64,000 bases of DNA from Roseivirga thermotolerans (GTDB lineage Bacteria > Bacteroidota > Bacteroidia > Cytophagales > Cyclobacteriaceae). The translations under genes and the position numbers were made by a program. The stretch is taken from NCBI RefSeq assembly GCF_014653175.1, contig NZ_BNAG01000001.1:992001-1056000 (forward strand), read 5' to 3'. Below are positions 7,422-64,000 of this stretch, in pieces (the stretch's first letter is position 1; each line of letters begins with the position of its first letter). The notes beneath the pieces are model-generated. The model did no database searches. It was not told where the DNA came from and saw nothing but the letters and a program-made list of their open reading frames with translations.

Positions 7422-7841
7422 GTGGATAGCGAAGTAAAAAAACTGCTGAAGAGCCATTCATTAAGACTCACGCAAAGTAGAGGCGATGTTATTTCTGTTT
7501 TTCTAGATAAGCAGGTGGCTATAAGCCATAGCGATATTGAAACAGAAATTGATGGCAAGTACGACAGGGTAACCATTTACCGAACCCTAAAATCTTTTAT
7601 GGACAAGGGACTTATTCATAAAGTACTTGACGATAGTGGTGCTACCCGATATGCCTTGTGTCATGATGAATGCTCTGAAGATTCCCACAAGCACAATCAT
7701 ATCCACTTTAAATGCCAGGAGTGTGATGAAACCACCTGTTTGGAGTTGGTAGATATACCCGAGGTAAAGTTGCCTGCCGGCTTCGAGGCTCTGGAAAGCA
7801 ATTACTTGGTTTCCGGGGTTTGCAATAAATGTAATCAGTAA
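7422..7841 (+). CDS. Fur-family transcriptional regulator (Fur/Zur type)
   Basis: 139 residues, normal for Fur-family repressors. The N-terminal winged helix carries LRLTQSRGDVISVFLDKQVAISHSDIE and DRVTIYRTLKSFMDKGLIHKV, the recognition-helix signature of the family. The C-terminal dimer/metal domain has a His-rich segment (SHKHNHIHFKC) and two CxxC pairs (CQEC near residue 100, CNKC at the end) for structural zinc. The start is GTG at 7422. Whether it senses iron or zinc cannot be decided from sequence. It is the only Fur-family gene in the window, so it is the local candidate to bind the palindromes near 53.1 and 56.5 kb. It overlaps the next, opposite gene tail-to-tail by 7 bases. Confidence 0.9.
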   Translation: MDSEVKKLLKSHSLRLTQSRGDVISVFLDKQVAISHSDIETEIDGKYDRVTIYRTLKSFMDKGLIHKVLDDSGATRYALCHDECSEDSHKHNHIHFKCQECDETTCLELVDIPEVKLPAGFEALESNYLVSGVCNKCNQ

Positions 7842-53130: not shown

Positions 53131-53143
53131 AAATTAGTATTTG
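53115..53143 (+). promoter_or_regulatory. Promoter of the MerC/COG0523 operon
   Basis: TTG (53115-53117), a 17-base spacer and TAGTATTTG (53135-53143), a -7 element with one extra spacer base. The palindromic operator starts at its last two bases, fitting repression by steric block. Confidence 0.4.
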
Positions 53144-53156
53144 CAACAATGTTGCA
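53142..53156. promoter_or_regulatory. Zur-like operator 1 (TGCAAC-N3-GTTGCA palindrome)
   Basis: TGCAACAATGTTGCA has perfect 6-bp arms around AAT. It lies 29 bases before the MerC ATG at 53186. The same pattern occurs twice more at 56.5 kb and was not noticed elsewhere in the window. Confidence 0.6.
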
Positions 53157-53185
53157 TTTAATTAAAAATGCAGCTAACATTGTGC

Positions 53186-53569
53186 ATGAATAAAACGGTT
53201 AAGACGTCTTCTTTTCTGGACAATTGGGGCATTGGTATTTCGTTCATGTGTTCTTTGCACTGCGCGGCCATGCCCCTTGTTTTTCTTACACCCCTATGGG
53301 CCGGACTCAGTACCTCCTGGCTTGAGCAGGGTGAGCTGTGGCTTTTTGTAGTTGCCGCTCTGGTAGGTACCGTATCTATAGGGCATACTTACAGTAAGTG
53401 TAAAGATGTGATGCCCGGGGTCTTGCTCCTCATGGGTCTTTCTTTTGTAGTTGCAGGAAGTGCTTTTGAAGCAATATGGACGGAGTCTGTGTTCCGCGTT
53501 TTGGGTTCACTTTTACTAATAGGCGCACATGTGAGTAACAAACGGGTACAGAAATCGGTGGGCCAATGA
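53186..53569 (+). CDS. MerC-domain membrane protein
   Basis: 127 residues from the ATG at 53186 (MNKTVKTSSFLDNWGIG); an ATG at 53168 adds six residues but would sit too close to the operator. Four membrane helices follow the MerC layout. The first helix carries FMCSLHCAAMPLVF, a C-x3-H-C-like metal motif seen in MerC and related transporters. Mercury uptake is not implied; in Bacteroidota such proteins are often found with zinc- or other metal-related genes. It is the first gene of the operon and ends overlapping the next by four bases. Confidence 0.8.
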   Translation: MNKTVKTSSFLDNWGIGISFMCSLHCAAMPLVFLTPLWAGLSTSWLEQGELWLFVVAALVGTVSIGHTYSKCKDVMPGVLLLMGLSFVVAGSAFEAIWTESVFRVLGSLLLIGAHVSNKRVQKSVGQ

Positions 53570-53982
53570 GATTTATCTTATTGCTGATTCTGGTGGTAAT
53601 GGCAGGCCCCAAGCCGGAGGGTTGGCAACTATTCGAGAAGGTTACCTTCAAGCCAAAATACTTTGAAAGCGAGGAGGCTTATTTTGAGGTACCCACCTTT
53701 GACAAAAAACTCAAAAGCCTCGAAAATACAGAGATAACGCTCTCGGGTTACTACATACCCCTCGATCTGGACTCGGCCATAGTCATTTCATCATTGCCCT
53801 TTAGCACTTGCTTCTTCTGTGGCGGAGCAGGCCCCGAAACGGTGGCAGAAGTTCAGTTAAAGACAAGACCAAAAGCCCTGCTTCCCGACCAGATTGTTAA
53901 GGTGAAGGGCAAGCTAAAGTTGAATGATTCTGATGTCACACACATGAACTTTATTTTAAAGGAGGCCACACTGATCAAGTAA
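53566..53982 (+). CDS. Secreted Cys-motif protein of a metal operon (DUF3299-like)
   Basis: 138 residues with a short N-terminal hydrophobic signal (FILLLILVVMAG). The body is strand-rich and OB-fold-like: ITLSGYYIPLDLDSAIVISSLPFSTCFFCGGAGPETVAEV, then IVKVKGKLKLND and HMNFILKEATLI. The GYYIPLD strand followed by a Cys cluster recalls DUF3299, where the Cys segment reads differently. The C-x2-C in STCFFCGG could bind zinc. Function unknown. It overlaps the MerC gene (ATGA) and is followed by the His-rich lipoprotein after one base. Confidence 0.7.
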   Translation: MRFILLLILVVMAGPKPEGWQLFEKVTFKPKYFESEEAYFEVPTFDKKLKSLENTEITLSGYYIPLDLDSAIVISSLPFSTCFFCGGAGPETVAEVQLKTRPKALLPDQIVKVKGKLKLNDSDVTHMNFILKEATLIK

Positions 53983-53983
53983 T

Positions 53984-54349
53984 ATGAGAAACCTGTTTGT
54001 CCTTTATTTAGCTCTTATTCTCAGCACGTCCTGCTCAAGAACCTCTCAAGATCAGGACCTGCTCAACAAAGCCTACCAGAAGCAGCAAGAAGTTATTGTG
54101 CTCATAGGTTCGCTCAAAGAAAAGCTTAAGGCTGTCAACTATGCGGAAAAAGACAGCCTGCTTCAGGTAGTTCATAACCTGGAAGAAACCCTGTTCGAAA
54201 TACCCGGTTATTCGCTCAAGCTTCCCGGCCACGAGGGCCACAGTCATAATCATAGACCCCTAAACCTGAGCCACAAAGAAATCTATCAGGTGCAGGTAGA
54301 AATGTATAATCAGCTCAACCACATAGAACAACTGGTAACCATCCGATGA
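53984..54349 (+). CDS. Histidine-rich lipoprotein
   Basis: 121 residues. A lipoprotein signal ([11 protein letters not shown], Cys17) precedes a helical domain (about 22-72) and a histidine motif GHEGHSHNH (His 83, 86, 88, 90), then a second helix ([21 protein letters not shown]). Clustered histidines in a periplasmic lipoprotein suggest a Zn/Ni/Cu-binding site. No known family recognised. It sits in the COG0523 operon and overlaps that gene by four bases (ATGA). Confidence 0.72.
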
Positions 54350-55542
54350 ATAAATTACCCGTAACCGTATTGTCAGGCTTTTTAGGAGCCGGCAAAACCA
54401 CCTTGCTCAATCATGTGCTACACAACAAAGAAGGCCTGCGCGTGGCCGTAATTGTCAATGACATGAGCGAAGTAAACATTGATGCTGAATTGGTAAAACA
54501 GGGCAACACCTTGAGCAGAACTGATGAAAAGCTTGTGGAAATGAGCAACGGCTGCATTTGTTGTACCTTGAGGGAAGACCTTATAGAAGAAGTAGCCAAA
54601 CTGGCACTCGAAGGCAAATATGACTACCTGCTTATTGAGAGTACCGGAATTTCCGAGCCGCTTCCCGTAGCGCAAACCTTTTGGTTCGAGAGTGATGAGC
54701 TGGATGTAAACCTCTCAGACATTTGCACTCTAGATACCATGGTTACCGTGGTAGATGCCTTTAACTTTTTAAAAGACTTTGGTTCGTCAGATACTATTGC
54801 CGGCAGAGAAATGAACGATGACGAAGACCAAAGGACCATAGTAAACCTACTCACCGACCAGGTAGAGTTTGCCGATGTAATCTTGATAAACAAGGTCGAT
54901 TTGGTGAGTAAAGACCAGCTTAAGCTCCTCAAAGGCCTAATGAAAAAGCTAAACCCCAAAGCTAAAATTATTGAAACGGAGTTTGGGAGAGTACCACTGC
55001 CAACCATTATGGGAACCAAGCAGTTCGACTACGAAACCACCTCTCAGTCGGCTGGCTGGATACAGGAGCTTGAAAATGAACACAAGCCAGAAACGGAAGA
55101 ATACGGAATCAGCTCCTTTGTTTTTAGGGATAAAAGGCCGTTTCATCCCCAACGATTTTGGAATTACGTTTCCATGTTCTGGCCAGCGAACATCGTCCGT
55201 AGCAAAGGACTCTTTTGGCTGGCCTCCCGGCCAGACGAAGCACTGACCTGGAGTCAGGCCGGAGGTTCGCTTCGGGCCGATTTTGCCGGGGTTTGGTGGT
55301 GTTCCATGCCCTTTGAGCAAAGAGTTCGCTACGAGGCATTTGTAGAAAATAAAGCCCGCATAGAGGCTGGCTGGAACAAGCTCTATGGCGACAGAAAGAA
55401 CGAATTGGTAATCATTGGTCAAAACCTCGACTCTGAGCAAATTAATTCAGAGCTACGGAACTGCCTTTGTACTCCAGACGAGATAGAAGCTTGGCAAAGT
55501 AAGAAACCATTTGTGGATCCGTGGCCAATACATGTAGACTAA
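54346..55542 (+). CDS. COG0523/CobW-family metallochaperone GTPase (ZigA-like)
   Basis: 398 residues of the G3E GTPase family. The P-loop is [16 protein letters not shown], the metal-binding CxCC motif is [12 protein letters not shown] (Cys 70, 72, 73), the switch region includes [18 protein letters not shown], and the nucleotide specificity motif is ILINKVDL. The C-terminal CobW_C domain contains [12 protein letters not shown]. Zinc-responsive members (ZigA, YeiR, ZNG1 types) deliver zinc to client enzymes when zinc is scarce. It lies fourth in the operon behind a Zur-like operator. CobW (cobalt) function is an alternative, but no cobalamin genes are near. Confidence 0.93.
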
Positions 55543-55546
55543 CGCT

Positions 55547-56419
55547 ATGAAAAGACTCTTTATACACAGCTGCCTTATACTCGTGCTGGCCTCCTGTGCC
55601 GGTACGCAACGGCTAAACCTTGCTTCTAAATCGGATTTGTGGAATATGTCCCATCTCTCCGAAGCCGAGTATCGGATGGCCAATGAGCTGCTCAGTTTTG
55701 GGCTTGAACATGAGGCGCTTTACACCCTGCTGGATACACTCAAACCAATCAGTAGCCTGGGATTTCCCCTTTCTTACCCATTGGCCAAAAGTGGTGAGCA
55801 GCACGATGGAGATGAGGACGTGGTAGACCTGATGTCTGACTCAACCCAAATGGCCTTTGCCGAACTTACACAATGGAATAAGGTGTTGAGTAGCCTTTCA
55901 AATGAGTACTTTTCCTTCCACTTAATTCCCTTTAAAAACACCTACCGGGGCAAGCGGAACCTTCAATTGTTGGTTTGCCGCAGAGACTTAATGGTCAAAC
56001 TGCTTAGCGAAAAGGCAGAGTTTTTTGGCCAGTGGGGTTTTACAAGCAATTCAGATCCGGCTACAGTGCTTACCACCATTGAATATGAAAGCCGGAATGA
56101 CCGCTACCGTGCCTACGGTTATCTTTTTGGTTATCCGGACCATGCCGTAGACTTTTTTGTTGAAGCCTCCATTAGTCAGGAGCAAACAGGAAACTTTGTG
56201 GAACGTAACTTCTTCCACATGCCCGTTGCTGTGATGCAAGACGGATATTTTACATATGCCTTACCCAAAGACTACACGCCAAGCCGGTCCGATTCTGCGA
56301 TATATCGTGCGGCTTTGAGCACCTTGCAGCGCTATGAAATGCTCAAGCCAAGATATATCGATTCTACAGGTCGTTTAGAGGCAATTCGTTTATTGTCTGA
56401 TAGTTGGAACAAACTCTAA
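55547..56419 (+). CDS. Hypothetical lipoprotein, last gene of the metal operon
   Basis: 290 residues. A lipoprotein signal (IHSCLILVLASC, Cys17 region) precedes a mature protein with no family I recognise. It holds helix-rich stretches (SEAEYRMANELLSFGLEHEALYTLLDTLKP), an acidic loop (HDGDEDVVDLM) that could bind a cation, and a strand-rich part (RYRAYGYLFGYPDHAVDFFVEASI). It starts four bases after the COG0523 stop, so it is probably co-transcribed. No paralogue in the window. Function unknown; a surface or periplasmic metal-related role is inferred from position only. Confidence 0.72.
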   Translation: MKRLFIHSCLILVLASCAGTQRLNLASKSDLWNMSHLSEAEYRMANELLSFGLEHEALYTLLDTLKPISSLGFPLSYPLAKSGEQHDGDEDVVDLMSDSTQMAFAELTQWNKVLSSLSNEYFSFHLIPFKNTYRGKRNLQLLVCRRDLMVKLLSEKAEFFGQWGFTSNSDPATVLTTIEYESRNDRYRAYGYLFGYPDHAVDFFVEASISQEQTGNFVERNFFHMPVAVMQDGYFTYALPKDYTPSRSDSAIYRAALSTLQRYEMLKPRYIDSTGRLEAIRLLSDSWNKL

Positions 56420-56470
56420 TATGCCCGATGGTATAGCCATGCAGCCACTCCTCAATTAAGGCGAAATCAT

Positions 56471-56491
56471 TTTTGCATCGTTGTTGCAAAA
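56471..56491. promoter_or_regulatory. Zur-like operator 2
   Basis: TTTTGCATC-GTT-GTTGCAAAA, a near-perfect palindrome with 9-bp arms and one mismatch (core 56474-56488). It covers the TTG at 56484-56486, a likely -33 element. Confidence 0.6.
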
Positions 56492-56513
56492 ACAAAATAA
56501 GTTTTCATACTTG
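56484..56513 (+). promoter_or_regulatory. Promoter of the ABC/DUF5916 operon
   Basis: TTG (56484-56486), a 19-base spacer and CATACTTG (56506-56513) fit the phylum promoter with mismatches. The -33 element falls in operator 2 and the -7 element runs into operator 3. Confidence 0.4.
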
Positions 56514-56527
56514 CATCATTGTTGCAA
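56511..56527. promoter_or_regulatory. Zur-like operator 3
   Basis: TTGCATC-ATT-GTTGCAA, centre 38 bases after operator 2, ending two bases before the ABC ATPase start codon. The core is 56512-56526 with one arm mismatch. Confidence 0.6.
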
Positions 56528-56529
56528 AA

Positions 56530-57240
56530 ATGAAAGACATGCTGCACGCAGTAAATCTCACAAAAAAGTATCAGGAGCATTTGGCTTTAGACGACCTCAA
56601 CTTATCCATTGAGCCGGGAGATATCTATTGCCTTTTAGGCGCCAATGGAGCCGGAAAATCGACCACAATTAATCTCTTTCTCAATTTTATTGCACCAACC
56701 AGCGGCAAAGCGGTAATCGATAAGTTTGAAGTAACGGAAAACCCTCAGGCCACCAGAAAGCTGATAGCTTATATTCCTGAAAACCTGGTTCTATACAATG
56801 AACTAAGTGGCTTGGAAAACCTTGAATATTTTGTAGGTCTGGCAGGCATGAAGTACCACCAGGAGCAACTGGTGGGCTTTCTAAAAGAGGCCGGCCTTCA
56901 GGTTGAGGCTTATAAAAAAAGAGTAAAGGCATATTCTAAAGGAATGCGCCAAAAGGTGGGAGTGGCCATGGCCATAGCCAAGAGAGCAAAGGTGCTCTTG
57001 CTCGATGAACCAACCTCCGGACTAGACCCAAAGGCCAGCAACGAATTTTCGGAGTTGCTACTTCGCCTAAGCAAGCAAAACGTAGCCACTCTAATGGCTA
57101 CCCACGATCTGTTCAGGGCCAAAGAGACAGGTACCAACATTGGCATTATGAAGTCGGGTAAGCTGGTTGAACAACTCTCTACCGAAGAAATTAACCATAG
57201 CGATCTGGAAAAACTGTATCTCAACCACATGAGTAATTGA
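56530..57240 (+). CDS. ABC transporter ATP-binding protein
   Basis: 236 residues from the ATG at 56530 (MKDMLHAVNLTKKY); the frame is open 19 codons further upstream, but that part is operator sequence. Walker A GANGAGKSTT, Q-loop region LIAYIPENLVLY, signature AYSKGMRQKVGVAMAIAK, Walker B VLLLDEPTSGLDP and the switch His ATHDLF are all intact, so it is a functional ABC ATPase of the ABC-2 exporter class (CcmA-like). The two permease genes follow by three bases and then one base. It opens an operon preceded by two Zur-like operators. Confidence 0.93.
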   Translation: MKDMLHAVNLTKKYQEHLALDDLNLSIEPGDIYCLLGANGAGKSTTINLFLNFIAPTSGKAVIDKFEVTENPQATRKLIAYIPENLVLYNELSGLENLEYFVGLAGMKYHQEQLVGFLKEAGLQVEAYKKRVKAYSKGMRQKVGVAMAIAKRAKVLLLDEPTSGLDPKASNEFSELLLRLSKQNVATLMATHDLFRAKETGTNIGIMKSGKLVEQLSTEEINHSDLEKLYLNHMSN

Positions 57241-57243
57241 AAG

Positions 57244-58632
57244 ATGGTATTTCTGGTTGCAGCTAAAGAAATCAAAGAGATCGTAAGGTCGGGGCAGTTT
57301 AAATGGATGCTGGGCATAGTGGTATTGCTCAGCATGGTGGCCACATACATTAGCCACGTGCACTGGCAAGAAAAAAATCGGCAGCGCATTGAGGCTGCAA
57401 ATCAGGCCAGAGAACTATGGTTGGCTCAAGGCTCTACCAACCCGCACAATGCGGCTCATTATGGCACCTTTGCTTTCAAACCTCAGTTTCCGCTGGCGCT
57501 AATAGACCCCGGGGTAGAGAAGTATACCGGAGTGTCTATTTTTCTGGAAGCCCACTCCAGAAATGAGGCTGACCATGTAGCTGCGGCCGATCAAACCGGG
57601 CTCTCACGCTTTGGAGACCTGACCCCCGATTTTGTTTTACTCTTTATTGTACCCCTAATGATTATTGCCCTGGGGCACCAGTCGGTTACCAAAGAAAAGG
57701 AACAGGGAACGCTGAAAATCATTAAGACTCAGGGAATAAGCAACAGGCAACTTATAGCCGGCAAATGGCTGGGCAACTACCTGCCCGTGGCCATGCTCAC
57801 TACCTGCCTGTTTGTGGTGGCGGCTTTATTTATCGGAGAATTTGACTGGAAGTTTCTGGCCACTCTATGGTTGGTTTATCTGGCCTATTTTGCCATAGTC
57901 AACAGTATTACCCTTGTTGTTTCCTCATTAACAAATAGCTCGGGTATTTCATTGGTTACATTACTAGCAATTTGGATTTGTAGCTGTCTGGCGGTTCCAA
58001 AAATCGCCAGCAGCTACACCAATGAAAAACATCCCTATCCTACCCGGCAAGAGTTCGAGGCGGCTATTGCCGAAGACAAGAAAAAAGGCCTGGATGGACA
58101 CGACCCCTGGAGTGAAGCATCTAAAAAATTGGAACGAGAGACCTTGGAGGCCTATCAGGTAAATAAACTGGAAGACCTGCCTTTCAATTTCGATGCTTTT
58201 CGAATGCAAAAGGGAGAAGAGCATGAGGCCGAAATTTACTTTAAGCACAACGAGAGACTAAAGGAGGTTCATAAAGAGCAAACCACGGTATATCAAAAGC
58301 TGGCCGTTCTTTCTCCCTTTCTGCCTACCCGCTTCATGTCCATGTCTTTGGCCCACACCGACTACTCCACCCATTGGCACTTTGCCGATGAAGCCGAAAA
58401 GCATCGCATAAAAATGCAGGAGATTTTGAATACCAACTTTGCTGAAAACTCCAGGCTAGGAGAGTGGGGATATAAGGCCGATGCTTCGTTGCTCTCCGAG
58501 ATACCTGAGTTCCATTTTGAGGCGCTCGATTTTAACGAAGTGATGAGTGCCAATAGCAGCAATCTCGGCATTCTCACTGCCTGGCTGCTGGCATCATTTG
58601 GTCTGTTAATTTTTGCTTCAACCCGCATTTAA
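57244..58632 (+). CDS. ABC-2 type permease, DUF3526 family (first subunit)
   Basis: 462 residues. An N-terminal anchor helix (MLGIVVLLSMVATYISHVHW) is followed by a long extracytoplasmic region and a membrane domain with LLFIVPLMIIALGHQSVTKEKEQGTLKIIKTQGISNRQLIAGKWLGNYLPV, the ABC-2 permease hallmark. A large soluble loop (about 255-430) contains His residues (KHPYPTRQE, HDPWSEA, HEAEIYFKHNE). A final helix ends FGLLIFASTRI. It pairs with the next gene as a heteromeric exporter. Exported substrate unknown; position suggests metal stress. Confidence 0.85.
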   Translation: MVFLVAAKEIKEIVRSGQFKWMLGIVVLLSMVATYISHVHWQEKNRQRIEAANQARELWLAQGSTNPHNAAHYGTFAFKPQFPLALIDPGVEKYTGVSIFLEAHSRNEADHVAAADQTGLSRFGDLTPDFVLLFIVPLMIIALGHQSVTKEKEQGTLKIIKTQGISNRQLIAGKWLGNYLPVAMLTTCLFVVAALFIGEFDWKFLATLWLVYLAYFAIVNSITLVVSSLTNSSGISLVTLLAIWICSCLAVPKIASSYTNEKHPYPTRQEFEAAIAEDKKKGLDGHDPWSEASKKLERETLEAYQVNKLEDLPFNFDAFRMQKGEEHEAEIYFKHNERLKEVHKEQTTVYQKLAVLSPFLPTRFMSMSLAHTDYSTHWHFADEAEKHRIKMQEILNTNFAENSRLGEWGYKADASLLSEIPEFHFEALDFNEVMSANSSNLGILTAWLLASFGLLIFASTRI

Positions 58633-58633
58633 T

Positions 58634-60034
58634 ATGGTCAACCTGAACATTCGTCATGAATTAAAACTTTTGAGCCGAAACTTCTGGTTTGTTTCACTCA
58701 GTCTTGTGCTGGTGTTACTTTGTCTCTATGCCGGTCACAATGGGTTAAAGCATTATGAAAGAAGGACGGCCGATCAGCAAGAAGCCCTGGCTGCTCAGCA
58801 GGCCAAAGAGCAGCTCATCAAAGAGGTGGCCCTAACCCTAAGTAAGGGAGAAGAGCATCCCAATGCCTACAGGCTTTCACCAATGAACCTGGCCATTTCC
58901 ACCGGACGCCTGGGTACCATGCCGGCCACCCAAATGAGCAAGCTAGCCATAGGGCAAAGCGACCTATACACTCACCAACTGAAAATTGCTCTCAACGAAG
59001 ATTTGGCTACTCTGAGCTTCAATGAACTTAACAATCCGGTGCAATTGCTCTTTGGAAACTTCGATTTGGCCTTTGTGCTAACCTACCTTGTACCTCTTAT
59101 AATTATTGCGTTCACCTACAACTTGCGTACCCGGGAGTTAGAATCCGGTCGGTTAAAACTGTTGGCTTCGAATCCTATCAAAATAAATCTATGGTTGTTG
59201 CAGCGGTTCATTATCCGTTATTTCTTCCTGTTACTCATACTCACTGCGATTCTCCTGGCCACGGTTCTTATCGCCCGCACAGGTTTTAGTATGCAGTTGT
59301 TAGTTTTCTTTCTACTCACTTATGCCTATCTGGCTTTTTGGTTTGCCATCTCTTACTTGGCGAACCTCTTGGGGAGATCTTCGGCCAGAAATGCCGTTTC
59401 TATGCTCTCTCTATGGATTCTACTGGTACTGGTTGTACCCACTGTGATCAATCAGGCTGCTAATACGGTGTATCCCATGCCTTCCAGAGTAAAGTTGCTC
59501 AATGAGATTCGGCAGACTAAAAAGGAGCTAAGTAAGGAGCAGAATAAAGTGCTGGATGAGTACCTACGAAACCATCCGGAACTGATAAGCAACAAAGGAG
59601 AGAATGCTTATGGTTATTGGCAAGGCTATTTTGCCAGCCAGGAACTTACAGAAAAACGGCTCGCCCCGCTTATTGAAAGGTTCGATGCACAGCTAGCCAA
59701 ACAGCAAAGATGGGTAAATGCCTGGGGGATTCTAAGCCCGGCTGTCATGTTTCACGATGGAGCCACTCGGCTGGCCGGCACCTCTTCTGCACATTACGAA
59801 CAGTTCAAAGATTATGTAAGGTCTTTTAGCTTGAACTGGAGAGCCCATTTTATGCCCTTCGTGTTCAAAAATGAAATGCTCGGATTGCAAGAGCTCGACA
59901 ACCTGCCGGAGTTTCAGTTCCGATCGAGGAGCCGTACAGCTGGCGTATTTATGAATATATCTGTTTTACTAGTTTTTTCTGCTTTGACGGTGATTTGGGG
60001 GCTTGCATTAGAGGGTAAACGTCAGCTTATATGA
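58634..60034 (+). CDS. ABC-2 type permease, DUF3526 family (second subunit)
   Basis: 466 residues from the ATG at 58634, one base after the previous stop; a TTG seven codons upstream is unlikely. It has the same layout as its neighbour: anchor helix (FWFVSLSLVLVLLCLYAGHNG), VLTYLVPLIIIAFTYNLRTRELESGRLKLLASNPIKINLWLLQRF, four or five further helices, and a large soluble loop with SKEQNKVLDEYLRNHPELI. The two permeases probably arose by duplication. The next gene, a barrel protein, starts 11 bases downstream. Confidence 0.83.
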   Translation: MVNLNIRHELKLLSRNFWFVSLSLVLVLLCLYAGHNGLKHYERRTADQQEALAAQQAKEQLIKEVALTLSKGEEHPNAYRLSPMNLAISTGRLGTMPATQMSKLAIGQSDLYTHQLKIALNEDLATLSFNELNNPVQLLFGNFDLAFVLTYLVPLIIIAFTYNLRTRELESGRLKLLASNPIKINLWLLQRFIIRYFFLLLILTAILLATVLIARTGFSMQLLVFFLLTYAYLAFWFAISYLANLLGRSSARNAVSMLSLWILLVLVVPTVINQAANTVYPMPSRVKLLNEIRQTKKELSKEQNKVLDEYLRNHPELISNKGENAYGYWQGYFASQELTEKRLAPLIERFDAQLAKQQRWVNAWGILSPAVMFHDGATRLAGTSSAHYEQFKDYVRSFSLNWRAHFMPFVFKNEMLGLQELDNLPEFQFRSRSRTAGVFMNISVLLVFSALTVIWGLALEGKRQLI

Positions 60035-60044
60035 ACCCAACCCA

Positions 60045-62252
60045 ATGAAACTTTATTCCCTGTTTTTTCTCTTTCTCTTTTGGTCAACCGCCTTGACTGC
60101 GCAGCAAGCAGACGGAAACTTTTCGCCTCCAAAAGAAAAAGAGGTTGTTCGGGCAATTCGGGCAAAAGGAGCCATTAAAATTGATGGCAAGCTAAACGAA
60201 AGCGATTGGCAAAGGGCTGTACCCATTGCTGATTTCTTTAGAATGGAGCCAAGGCAGGGAGGAGCGTATCGGTACAAAACGCAAGTGCGAGTACTTTTTG
60301 ATGATAAATACCTGTATGTAGGGGCATTTTGTGCCGATAGCTTAGGCAAACGAGGCATTCGCGTTCAGGATTTAAGGCGTGATTTCAGCTGGGGAGAAAA
60401 TGATATTTTCGGCATACAACTAGACCCACAAAACCTAAAGCAATATGCCGTTGCCTTCCAGACCACACCTTATGGCAATCAGCGAGACCTGCAGAACTTT
60501 AATGACCAGAGCACAGACAACGACTGGAATGCTCTTTGGACGGTGCGAACCTTTCAGGCCGATGAGGGCTACTATACCGAATTTGCCATTCCTTTTAAGT
60601 CGCTACGGTACGATTTGCCCATAAAAGGTGAGGAGGTAATCTGGGGTATTACGTTTACCCGTCTGGCCAGAAGGGACTATGAACAAACCGTTTTTCCGGC
60701 CATTCCACAGTCGTTTAGTCCATACCGAATGACTTACGCAGCGCAGTTGAAAGGATTGGAGCTGCCGGAGCCAAGCGCTAATGTGCGTGTGGAACCCTAT
60801 GCTTTGTTTCAATATGAAAACCAAACGGAGGACGGTGCAAAAACTACCGAGAGTAGTTTTAAACTGGGTGGAGACGCTAAGTGGGCTGTGAACCCCAATA
60901 CGGTAGTAGACCTTACCTTCAATACAGACTTTGCTCAGGCCGATGTAGACAGGGCCGTAAACAATCTGGAGAGGTTCAATATCTTCTTTCCTGAGCGAAG
61001 GCAATTTTTTCTGGAAAACTCAGGGATATGGTCTGGCAGTTATCAGTTTGCCATTAGGCCTTTTTTTAGTCGAAAAATTGGTTTGGCCGGTGATTTCAAT
61101 GCGCAGCCGGCCCCCATTGATGTGGGTGTAAGGTATACTCAACGAGACGAGAAACAGACACTGGCCGGCATGTATATTCATCAGGCCGCTACAGACATTT
61201 CGCAGGCCGCCAACTTTGGTGTACTGAGATATGCCCATAACTACGGCAAGGAGAACAACGTGGGCTTTATGTTTACACACCGACTCAATGAAAGCTCAGA
61301 GTCGCTAAATAGAGAAACCCAAAACAATTCCACATGGACCATAGACGGGCTCATTAGACCTTCCGATCAGTGGACGGTAAATTACCTTGCTTCTGTTTCT
61401 ACCGATTATGAAAAGGGTGATCTGGGTTTTGCCGGAAGGTTCTTTGCCGGAAGACAGGCTAATAAGTCTTACTGGGGCTGGGTAACCGAGTACATAGACC
61501 AATCCTACAACCCGGCCATGGGATTTATAAGCCAGAGCAATGTAATCAGGCATAACCCCGGAGGCTACTGGATTGTGAGACCCAAAAAACTGAAGTGGAT
61601 AAGAAGGTGGGATCCGGGGCTGTTTGTGAATTATTATCACGATGCCAACGATCCGGGCAGTTTTCAGCAAGCCAGTCTTTACCTCTTTCCCATATATGTG
61701 TTTTTTACTGATGGAAGCTTTGTGGAATACGCCATTACACCCACCTGGCAGAACATCAACTTTAGCTTTGCCCCATTGGGTATTGCTATTCCGCAAGAGG
61801 AGTTCTTTTATGTGAGGCACGATATCAATATTAGAACCGATCAGTCTAAGAAGTGGTCGCTTAGCGGAAGCTATGAGTGGGGTGAATTTTACAATGGAAG
61901 ACAGAAAAAGGTAGTAGGAGGAGCAAGAGTAGCCCCTTCTCCTCACTTTGCCTTAAACGTTGACTATGAATACATTCTACTTGAAGAACTGGGTATTCTA
62001 CAACAAAATATGGAAACGCACTTAACCACTTTAGGTGCAAGACTGGCTGTGAACCCACGCATTCAAATGTCTTCTTTTTATCAGTACAATTCTTTCGATG
62101 ATCAGGGCAGATGGAATGTGCGTTTCAGTTGGGAGTATCAGCCCCTTTCATTTTTATACTTGGTTTTTAACAGCAACACCATTAGCACCCACGAGAGAGA
62201 CTTTCAGCAGCAACAAACCATTGCCAAACTCACTTTCTTAAAGCAGTTTTAG
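60045..62252 (+). CDS. DUF5916/CBM9-like outer-membrane barrel protein
   Basis: 735 residues, full length for DUF5916. A signal peptide (residues 1-19, LFFLFLFWSTALTA) precedes a CBM9-like domain (about 30-220: IKIDGKLNESDWQRAVPI and DDKYLYVGAFCADS). A DUF5916 barrel follows, with FNTDFAQADVDRAVNNLERFNIFFPERRQFFLENSGIWS as the hallmark, and ends in strand TIAKLTFLKQF. The last strand and the stop codon lie within a 28-bp direct repeat (62232-62259). It reads with the ABC genes behind the Zur-like operators. Substrate unknown. Confidence 0.88.
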   Translation: MKLYSLFFLFLFWSTALTAQQADGNFSPPKEKEVVRAIRAKGAIKIDGKLNESDWQRAVPIADFFRMEPRQGGAYRYKTQVRVLFDDKYLYVGAFCADSLGKRGIRVQDLRRDFSWGENDIFGIQLDPQNLKQYAVAFQTTPYGNQRDLQNFNDQSTDNDWNALWTVRTFQADEGYYTEFAIPFKSLRYDLPIKGEEVIWGITFTRLARRDYEQTVFPAIPQSFSPYRMTYAAQLKGLELPEPSANVRVEPYALFQYENQTEDGAKTTESSFKLGGDAKWAVNPNTVVDLTFNTDFAQADVDRAVNNLERFNIFFPERRQFFLENSGIWSGSYQFAIRPFFSRKIGLAGDFNAQPAPIDVGVRYTQRDEKQTLAGMYIHQAATDISQAANFGVLRYAHNYGKENNVGFMFTHRLNESSESLNRETQNNSTWTIDGLIRPSDQWTVNYLASVSTDYEKGDLGFAGRFFAGRQANKSYWGWVTEYIDQSYNPAMGFISQSNVIRHNPGGYWIVRPKKLKWIRRWDPGLFVNYYHDANDPGSFQQASLYLFPIYVFFTDGSFVEYAITPTWQNINFSFAPLGIAIPQEEFFYVRHDINIRTDQSKKWSLSGSYEWGEFYNGRQKKVVGGARVAPSPHFALNVDYEYILLEELGILQQNMETHLTTLGARLAVNPRIQMSSFYQYNSFDDQGRWNVRFSWEYQPLSFLYLVFNSNTISTHERDFQQQQTIAKLTFLKQF

Positions 62253-62718: not shown

Positions 62719-62746
62719 ACTTTCTTAAAGCAGTTTTAGTTTAACA
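62719..62746 (+). repeat. 28-bp direct repeat, right copy
   Basis: Identical to 62232-62259. It covers the stop codon of the convergent CDF gene (TAA at 62741-62743 on the minus strand). Confidence 0.9.
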
Positions 62747-63625
62747 GTCTTTGCAGTGTTCGTCCTTGAGTTCAAACTCAAGCGTAGAATGCTCAATGCC
62801 TAATTCGTGAAGCAGATATTTCGCTCGTTTTTTAATGGCCGCTTGCAGGCGTAGGTCGTACGACTTGTCGAGTACCAGGTGTGCCGAGAGTACATGGTAT
62901 TCTCCATCCATAGACCAAACGTGGCAGTCATGAACCTCAATGACCTCGGGGATGGTTCTCAGGCGTTTATGCACCTTTTCCAGATCTATTTCTTCAGGTG
63001 TGGCCTGAAGAATAATGCTGAAGCTTTTTTTGATGTTTACAAACACGTTGTAGATAATAAATAAGGCGATAAGCACAGAGAGCAGAGGGTCTATGAAATA
63101 CCAATCGAAGTACATGATGAGCAAACTGCCCACCAAAACGGCTATCCAACCCAACACATCTTCCAACAAATGAAGGCTAATAACCCGTTCGTTAATAGAG
63201 CTTCCCTTTCTAAGTCTTAGTACCGCTACCCCATTTACCAATACACCGAAAATGGCTATGTAGAGCATGCCTTTTTCATTCACCTCGGTAGGGTTAAGTA
63301 CCTGAGGCACTGCACGGCTGATGATTATGACCGAACCCACAAGCAGCACCACGGCATTAATAATGGCACCTAATAACGAAAAGCGTTTGTAGCCATACGA
63401 AAATGTATTATTCCGCTTCTTTTCCGATAGGTTTTGAAAGTACCAGCTCAGGCCTATACTCACACTGTCGCCCAGATCGTGCAGCGCATCCGATAGAATG
63501 GCCAGACTGCCCGTAAACAAGCCTCCAATAAATTCAATACAGGTAAAACCCAGGTTCAGGAAAAAGGCCACCTTCAAGTTTTTCGTGCTCGCGTGGCCAT
63601 GATGATGATGGTGATGATGCCCCAT
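62741..63625 (-). CDS. Cation diffusion facilitator (zinc-type CDF) transporter
   Basis: 294 residues from the ATG at 63625 (a TTG two codons upstream is possible). The N-terminus MGHHHHHHHGHAS is a striking His stretch (seven in a row), a cytosolic metal-binding tail seen in zinc CDFs. Six helices follow with the tetrahedral site in LHDLGDSVSIGL (H-x3-D) and HLLEDVLGW (H-x3-D). The C-terminal cytoplasmic domain ends in HCKDC. It exports Zn2+ (possibly Co2+/Cd2+) using protons. The ZIP-like gene lies upstream in the same direction. Confidence 0.94.
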   Translation of the reverse strand: MGHHHHHHHGHASTKNLKVAFFLNLGFTCIEFIGGLFTGSLAILSDALHDLGDSVSIGLSWYFQNLSEKKRNNTFSYGYKRFSLLGAIINAVVLLVGSVIIISRAVPQVLNPTEVNEKGMLYIAIFGVLVNGVAVLRLRKGSSINERVISLHLLEDVLGWIAVLVGSLLIMYFDWYFIDPLLSVLIALFIIYNVFVNIKKSFSIILQATPEEIDLEKVHKRLRTIPEVIEVHDCHVWSMDGEYHVLSAHLVLDKSYDLRLQAAIKKRAKYLLHELGIEHSTLEFELKDEHCKDC

Positions 63626-63661
63626 GTCCAAATGTATTAAGAAAAGCTACGCAACAAGGTT

Positions 63662-64000
63662 TCAGATAACCAGCTGTGCCAATACGGCACACAAGGCTCC
63701 AAAAACCGAAACCCCAAACCGCAACCAATTGAGCTTATGATTAGGGTCTGTCTCAAAAAATATGGTTGTAGAAATTTGTAAAAAGCTACCCGCCACAATG
63801 GCAAAGAAAATGATCATGTACTTTTCGGGTAATAAGTTGCCATGGCTCATAAACTCGCTTACAAACAGGCCTAAGGGAGAGGCCAGGGCAAATATGAGCA
63901 AGGCTGAGTAGGCCTGAAATTTTAGTTTGAATCTGTTGAGCAATAGAGCCATTAGAGCTACTGCAGCCGGTATTTTATGCATTACTATACCCAACAATAT
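63662..64000 (-). CDS. ZIP-family metal transporter, C-terminal part (5' end outside window)
   Basis: Open to the window edge; 112 residues visible, about four helices. ZIP features: GIVMHKIPAAVALMALLLNRF (the H-K-I-P-x-A motif of the metal-site helix; the usual Glu after Pro is Ala here), then SPLGLFVSEF and VAGSFLQISTTIFFETDPNHK. ZIP proteins move Zn2+ or other divalent ions into the cytoplasm. It lies 36 bases upstream of the CDF gene. The full family and the missing Glu can only be judged with the rest of the gene. Confidence 0.75.
   Translation of the reverse strand: MLLGIVMHKIPAAVALMALLLNRFKLKFQAYSALLIFALASPLGLFVSEFMSHGNLLPEKYMIIFFAIVAGSFLQISTTIFFETDPNHKLNWLRFGVSVFGALCAVLAQLVI

Follow-up and report, generated by a model that had tools for sequence, protein, structure and literature searches.

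A TTGCAAC-N3-GTTGCAA operator and its gene neighbours very probably mark a Zur-type zinc regulon in Roseivirga thermotolerans and its relatives

The Zur regulons of E. coli, Vibrio and Pseudomonas are among the closest described counterparts of the system considered here, a palindromic operator, TGCA(A/T)C-N3-GTTGCA, that stands before two operons in a 64,000-nucleotide stretch of the Roseivirga thermotolerans genome (contig NZ_BNAG01000001.1, positions 992,001 to 1,056,000; hereafter the window). Known Zur boxes of other phyla are of the GTTATA or ATTATCA type, and the operator sequence in the window is unlike them. Shared features are targets that include zinc importers and TonB receptors, and a repressor of the Fur family that carries a Cys4 site together with a sensor site containing Cys (described in PMC4219657); a difference is that no ZnuABC was found under the operator here, the only ABC-3 locus of the genome being without it. 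In many genomes Zur sites are followed by COG0523 genes (PMC2770081). The Streptomyces Nur box resembles the operator in its half-site, TTGCAA, and its N5 spacing, and the 17-base-pair (bp) operator fits the Nur consensus tTGCaa-N5-ttGCAA printed in PMC3919588, whereas the targets here are of the zinc type. A further comparison is with ZrgABCDE of Vibrio and PA4063-PA4066 of Pseudomonas, operons induced by zinc limitation or listed as Zur-regulated, which encode an ABC ATPase, a permease and a DUF3299 protein (zrgE, up 76-fold in low zinc in Vibrio) or periplasmic PA4066 (PMC9817125 and PMC8561739); the DUF3299-like gene of the window recalls zrgE and PA4066. Unlike in those operons, the window permeases are of the ABC-2/DUF3526 type, and the DUF3299-like gene, which scores below its family cut-off, sits with MerC and a ZigA-like gene.

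The palindrome occurs at 53142-53156, 56474-56488 and 56512-56526, precisely where the initial annotation had read three copies of it, and these are the only exact matches (0 mismatches) within the window. The exact core gave 4 strand-wise matches versus a mean of 0.04 and a maximum of 2 in 100 dinucleotide shuffles, 0/100 of which reached 4. When 2 mismatches were allowed, 9 matches were counted versus a chance mean of 10.8; because this is the chance level, with no excess, the window evidence rests on the exact core. The 15 bp of operator 1 are perfectly palindromic, and operators 2 and 3 each have a single asymmetric position (TGCATC...GTTGCA). The features are as follows.

53141-53157, no strand assigned: operator 1 (TTGCAACAATGTTGCAT), before the MerC/ZigA-like operon; similar to promoters at L070, L109 and other loci
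56473-56489, no strand assigned: operator 2 (TTGCATCGTTGTTGCAA), 38 bp upstream of operator 3
56511-56527, no strand assigned: operator 3 (TTGCATCATTGTTGCAA), its end 2 bp upstream of an in-frame ATG at 56530 and 11 bp upstream of another at 56539
53132-53144, plus strand: possible -7-like promoter element (TTAGTATTTG) reaching into operator 1

It is highly probable that these palindromes are Zur boxes, bound by a repressor that controls zinc-scavenging genes. Computation establishes the sites, the genes next to them, how well they are conserved, their association with zur genes and the metal-ligand residues; from these we infer binding by the Fur-family protein encoded at 7422, a zinc signal and repression. 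The regulon would work like a Zur regulon, and very probably is one. When zinc is sufficient, a dimer of the 7422 protein, held by its structural Cys4 zinc site and with the sensor site as its switch, would bind in zinc-loaded form to TTGCAAC-N3-GTTGCAA at a position overlapping or adjoining the core promoter, and would block both the MerC/DUF3299-like/ZigA-like operon and the ABC-2/DUF3526-DUF5916 operon. A drop in zinc would empty the sensor site and release Zur from the DNA, and both operons would then be expressed with the ZIP importer, the ZnuD-like TonB receptor, the AztD-like chaperone and others.

The wider set of targets comes from a genome-wide search, proposed in the initial annotation as a check, which gave 8 places within 1 mismatch of the 17-bp TTGCAACNNNGTTGCAA in the 4.2-Mb genome versus 1 for the reversed pattern, with targets of the zinc type (ZIP, ZnuD-like, AztD-like) among them; a looser A/T pattern with 2 mismatches was noisy (47 places vs 22 for the reversed control). 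Outside the window operons and the ZIP gene at the window's end, a site at C1:1311495 precedes the ZnuD-like TonB receptor, and paired sites at C1:363280 and 363316 precede the AztD-like lipoprotein gene. Both names rest on similarity below model cut-offs: the receptor (L021:5532-7907) scores 93.2 bits with the ZnuD model NF038289 (cut-off 950), heme-receptor models scoring higher and also below cut-off, and the AztD-like protein (L019:4561-5814) scores 93.1 bits with NF038015 (cut-off 400). The site at C3:265019 stands before a gene for an oxidoreductase dependent on flavin adenine dinucleotide (L018:5087-5980), as it does before homologues in L057 and L078; an assignment of this site to ATP-grasp/carbamoyltransferase genes was wrong, the oxidoreductase gene being what follows it. 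The site at C2:704752 precedes a 336-residue protein without a Pfam family. The earlier proposal of one repressor for nine genes is supported as to the single repressor, but its count was too low, as the ZIP-CDF operon and four more promoters elsewhere in the genome have to be added. Two other candidates look like chance matches, C7:37469 (1 mismatch to the A/T pattern, with no zinc-type gene there) and C1:412538 (2 mismatches); further 2-mismatch matches lie at C1:1068958 and C1:1068975. The genome's single ABC-3 metal transporter locus (L199, C4:254500-263500) has no operator, the nearest matches having at least 4 mismatches; it lies near a DtxR-type regulator gene, probably concerns manganese, and serves as a negative control.

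For the relatives, the search with the 17-bp pattern yielded 75 places among the matches listed, falling into 71 stretches, of which 60 were analysed; the order-level set of 20 stretches and the class-level set of 19 were hand-picked, not random, and genes were labelled by their best BLAST hits among 29 proteins of the R. thermotolerans genome chosen for nearness to its own sites. The same gene types stand behind the operator in the genus and in neighbouring families. Over 86 pooled loci, 70 of the 106 distinct sites precede a homologue of the R. thermotolerans regulon: a TonB receptor (14), small lipoprotein (11), AztD-like protein (9), ABC ATPase (8), ZIP transporter (6), Fur-family protein (6), the 336-residue protein (5), MerC (4), the oxidoreductase (3), a DUF3299-like protein (3) or a ZigA-like protein (1). 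Because the query proteins had been picked near the genome's own sites, a reversed-pattern control was run in the same 39 genomes, and 0/17 of its sites precede regulon homologues; 14 of these 17 control sites lie inside reading frames vs 11/96 true sites.

Gene order differs between individual loci. L090 (genome G018) has the small protein, ZigA-like and lipoprotein-like genes, an operator and the ABC genes; L140 (G002) has the same plus the DUF5916 gene, with a Fur-family gene in the place of MerC. The L137 locus (G004) contains MerC but lacks a ZigA-like gene, and has another ABC set, located after a TonB receptor. At L148 the operator is followed by genes for a MacB/FtsX-type permease, an ABC ATPase and a DUF3299-family protein. 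G282 belongs to a different order; there (L207, L208) an operator precedes an ABC ATPase gene, two permease genes and zur, after which come a second operator, a NicO-family gene, a small gene and a COG0523 gene. Quite apart from the window, this arrangement links the ABC-2/DUF3526 genes both to the operator and to zur.

A separate scan with the ZigA-like protein as query covered the best 80 of more than 589 loci, the nearest relative among these 80 being from Roseivirga sp. UBA6052 (81% identity). The motif (at most 1 mismatch) was present at 24 of the 54 Bacteroidota ZigA-like loci, with 29 sites, all upstream of the gene, and 0 for the reversed control; it was also present at 1/1 Balneolales locus and at 2/25 other loci (24/54 vs 2/25, Fisher p 0.0016). 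Both of the latter are betaproteobacterial records (Methylotenera, Methylophilus), where the distance from the operator to the ZigA-like gene downstream of it is 41 bp (L293:2960) and 73 bp (L295:2928). A 68%-identical ZigA-like gene without the motif was found on a 6.3-kb contig labelled Nostoc (L237) and was counted as non-Bacteroidota; the contig looks like contamination from Bacteroidota.

Co-occurrence with the regulator gene was assessed in 148 genomes of the order, of which 106 have a clear zur orthologue (E 3.7e-19 or better), 38 have none, and 4 with a weak match (G039, G052, G072, G143) were assigned to neither group. The exact 15-bp core was found in 78/106 genomes with zur (243 sites, control 13) versus 3/38 without a match (3 sites, control 5), and among genomes of at least 2.5 Mb in 77/105 versus 3/18; the looser 17-bp pattern was found in 93/106 versus 12/38. 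Five genomes whose zur match is weak or absent gave 18 looser-pattern hits, every one of which breaks the core. The looser pattern also exceeds its control outside the order, with 215 places vs 54 in 115 genomes from the rest of the class, and a zur orthologue (36-49% identical) adjoins the operator at 7 of the 19 chosen loci (L200, L203, L204, L205, L206, L208, L211); at L200 and L203 a perfect operator lies between zur and a divergent MerC gene.

Two variant sequences were seen in the course of these counts. G039, a genome with a weak zur match, contains the identical near-match TTTCAACCATGTTGCAA at five places (C4, C5, C12, C19, C43), twice less than 100 bp from a contig start, and this is probably a repeated element. 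G161 (L161), which has no zur match and has a second, weak Fur-family gene (L173), carries the variant TTGCGACAATGTTGCAA twice (C57:5527 and C131:2576), possibly a shifted box.

The candidate regulator is one of two Fur-family proteins over the cut-off in the R. thermotolerans genome, the other being encoded on contig C5.

7422-7841, plus strand: Zur, a Fur-family regulator of 139 amino acids (PF01475, 45.5 bits, cut-off 23.1)

Its best match among solved structures is E. coli Zur (4mtd, E 1.3e-5), and 2o03, a zinc regulator like 4mtd, is also among its best solved relatives. In a hand-counted alignment the structural Cys4 site of E. coli Zur (C103, C106, C143, C146) corresponds to C98, C101, C134 and C137, and the sensor residues H77 and C88 correspond to H66 and C80. 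H66, C80, H93, H95, C98, C101, C106, C134 and C137 are identical in 19/19 orthologue rows; the residue aligned with E. coli H96, H91, is replaced by D in 1/19 rows (H93 and H95 being constant), and E111 has no conserved partner. C88 is described in PMC4219657 as the most conserved sensor-site residue of Zurs, and the C5 protein lacks the C80 sensor cysteine. With these Zur-type metal sites, the association of motif and zur across the order and the zinc-type targets, the suggestion that a Fur-family Zur is the repressor is strongly supported.

A second, divergent type of Fur-family gene, which the R. thermotolerans genome does not have, occurs in relatives.

L137:586-963, L140:1564-1983, L138:3237-3632, L138:9330-9767, L154:2615-2986 and L106:2509-2916: divergent second Fur-family genes

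Five of the six lie directly behind an operator, and the sixth follows a small lipoprotein gene that has a site with 2 mismatches. The sensor cysteine is gone in 5/6 of their products, and the structural Cys4 residues are kept in 6/6 (two rows of the Fur-family table, Zur_L126 and FurFam_L158, had wrong reading frames and were not counted).

Several results weigh against assigning the sites to a Zur. The 7422 protein reaches 38.8 bits with the NCBIfam Zur model NF008646, whose cut-off is 167, and none of the 8 NCBIfam models listed reaches its cut-off; its own gene has no operator, the nearest match having 5 mismatches. No recognised target follows 36 of the 106 pooled sites, 30 of the 54 Bacteroidota ZigA-like loci have no motif within the flanks, and the exact core was not found in 28 of the 106 genomes with zur. 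The co-occurrence counts ignore phylogeny, the exact-core test was picked after the hits in five genomes had been viewed, and with the looser 17-bp pattern the difference among genomes of at least 2.5 Mb is weak (92/105 vs 11/18, p 0.011). The sites might instead be bound by a regulator from a family other than Fur, or by the Fur-family protein of contig C5, since co-occurrence is no proof of binding, the zur gene at 7422 has no linked operator in its own genome, and 3 genomes without a zur match have one exact core each. We nevertheless give this very little credence: the operator accompanies zur across the order and adjoins it in other orders, and in genomes without a zur orthologue at least one Fur-family gene (the C5-like Fur) is present in 11/11 examined, yet these have few or no exact cores.

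Very little credence is likewise given to a Fur-family regulator of the nickel (Nur-like) type, for which the palindromes would be Nur boxes. One distant genome does have a NicO-family gene behind the operator (L208), but the targets that can be named are zinc genes (ZIP, ZigA-like, AztD-like, ZnuD-like), and structure 3eyy, which we take to be Nur, ranks below the zinc regulators 4mtd and 2o03 as a match to the 7422 protein (E 0.0017). As for chance, or a repeated element without a regulatory role, the window count with 2 mismatches is what chance predicts; set against it are the exact-core count, which no shuffle reached, the genome-wide excess of 8 over 1, and the same gene types behind the operator in relatives, and with promoters conserved in this way we consider it practically negligible.

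Beyond the Zur assignment itself, a broader proposal is offered tentatively, at rather less than even confidence: the operator may be the Zur box of the whole phylum, with the layout of a nickel box, and may control an undescribed ABC-2/DUF3526 zinc module (with DUF5916 in the genus itself), the second Fur genes of relatives possibly encoding modulators, induced by starvation, that pair with Zur in mixed dimers. No paper on a Zur box for Bacteroidota was found in the open-access literature searched, the Zur review PMC6103462 contains neither Bacteroid nor TTGCAA, and a search for the operator letters returned unrelated work only. Within that literature the operator sequence, its pairs often exactly 38 bp apart and the presence of an ABC-2/DUF3526 operon in a zinc regulon look undescribed. 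An operator that follows zur across the order and stands upstream of ZigA-like genes in named Bacteroidota would make zinc-starvation regulons readable from genomes, and it points to ABC-2/DUF3526, DUF5916, MerC, DUF3299-like and small lipoprotein genes as candidate zinc genes. If the Zur assignment is right, one Fur-family box layout would serve nickel in one phylum and zinc in another, and how it does so is a testable question.

The arrangement of operators and putative promoters was also compared across sites. TAGTATTTG extends into operator 1 and TACTTG extends into operator 3, and the dinucleotide TA lies immediately 5' of the motif on the coding strand at 34/64 oriented sites vs 12/64 on the other strand (Fisher p 9e-5). 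At oriented sites TA-n-TTG often overlaps the first half-site; it recalls the -7 element of the phylum. A general presence of the full -7 element TAnnTTTG was dropped, as it was found at 7/64 sites on either strand and is not strand-specific. The overlap of promoters and operators proposed in the initial annotation is plausible and only partly borne out, by the sequences running into the operators and by the TA bias and not by the full element. Among close operator pairs 9/22 are spaced exactly 38 bp, including operators 2 and 3, although some of these pairs are homologous promoters and so not independent.

The genes of the two window operons are as follows.

53168-53569, plus strand: MerC-family membrane protein, operon 1 gene 1 (Pfam MerC, 66.5 bits, cut-off 27.6)
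53566-53982, plus strand: exported DUF3299-like protein with a CFFCGG motif (ZrgE/PA4066 type), below cut-off
53984-54349, plus strand: small lipoprotein-like protein with a His-rich stretch, named from sequence, no family match
54346-55542, plus strand: ZigA-like COG0523 GTPase (NF038288, 567.5 bits, below the cut-off of 600)
55547-56419, plus strand: lipoprotein-like protein of no known family, kept beside the ZigA-like gene in relatives
56530-57240, plus strand: ABC transporter ATPase, operon 2 gene 1 (family profile match)
57244-58632, plus strand: ABC-2 permease with DUF3526 (family profile match)
58613-60034, plus strand: second ABC-2 permease with DUF3526 (family profile match)
60045-62252, plus strand: DUF5916 protein with a CBM9-like domain (family profile match)

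The DUF3299-like protein scores 13.4 bits with PF11736, below the cut-off of 22, which is exceeded by its homologue at L148:11-472 (29.3 bits); a homologue at L147 scores 15.5 bits and two others gave no match, and the family profile did not match the PA4066 structure 4hsp significantly (E 0.23). Beyond operon 2, two genes on the other strand lie near the end of the window.

62741-63631, minus strand: CDF-like transporter gene behind the ZIP gene and probably in the same operon, named from sequence, not by a family match
63662-64000, minus strand: ZIP zinc transporter, the gene continuing to 64408, with an operator at 64424-64440 past the window end (C1:1056424)

The CDF family is usually tied to metal export, and here a CDF-like gene follows a ZIP uptake gene in one apparent operon (62741-64408); the pair recurs in L096.

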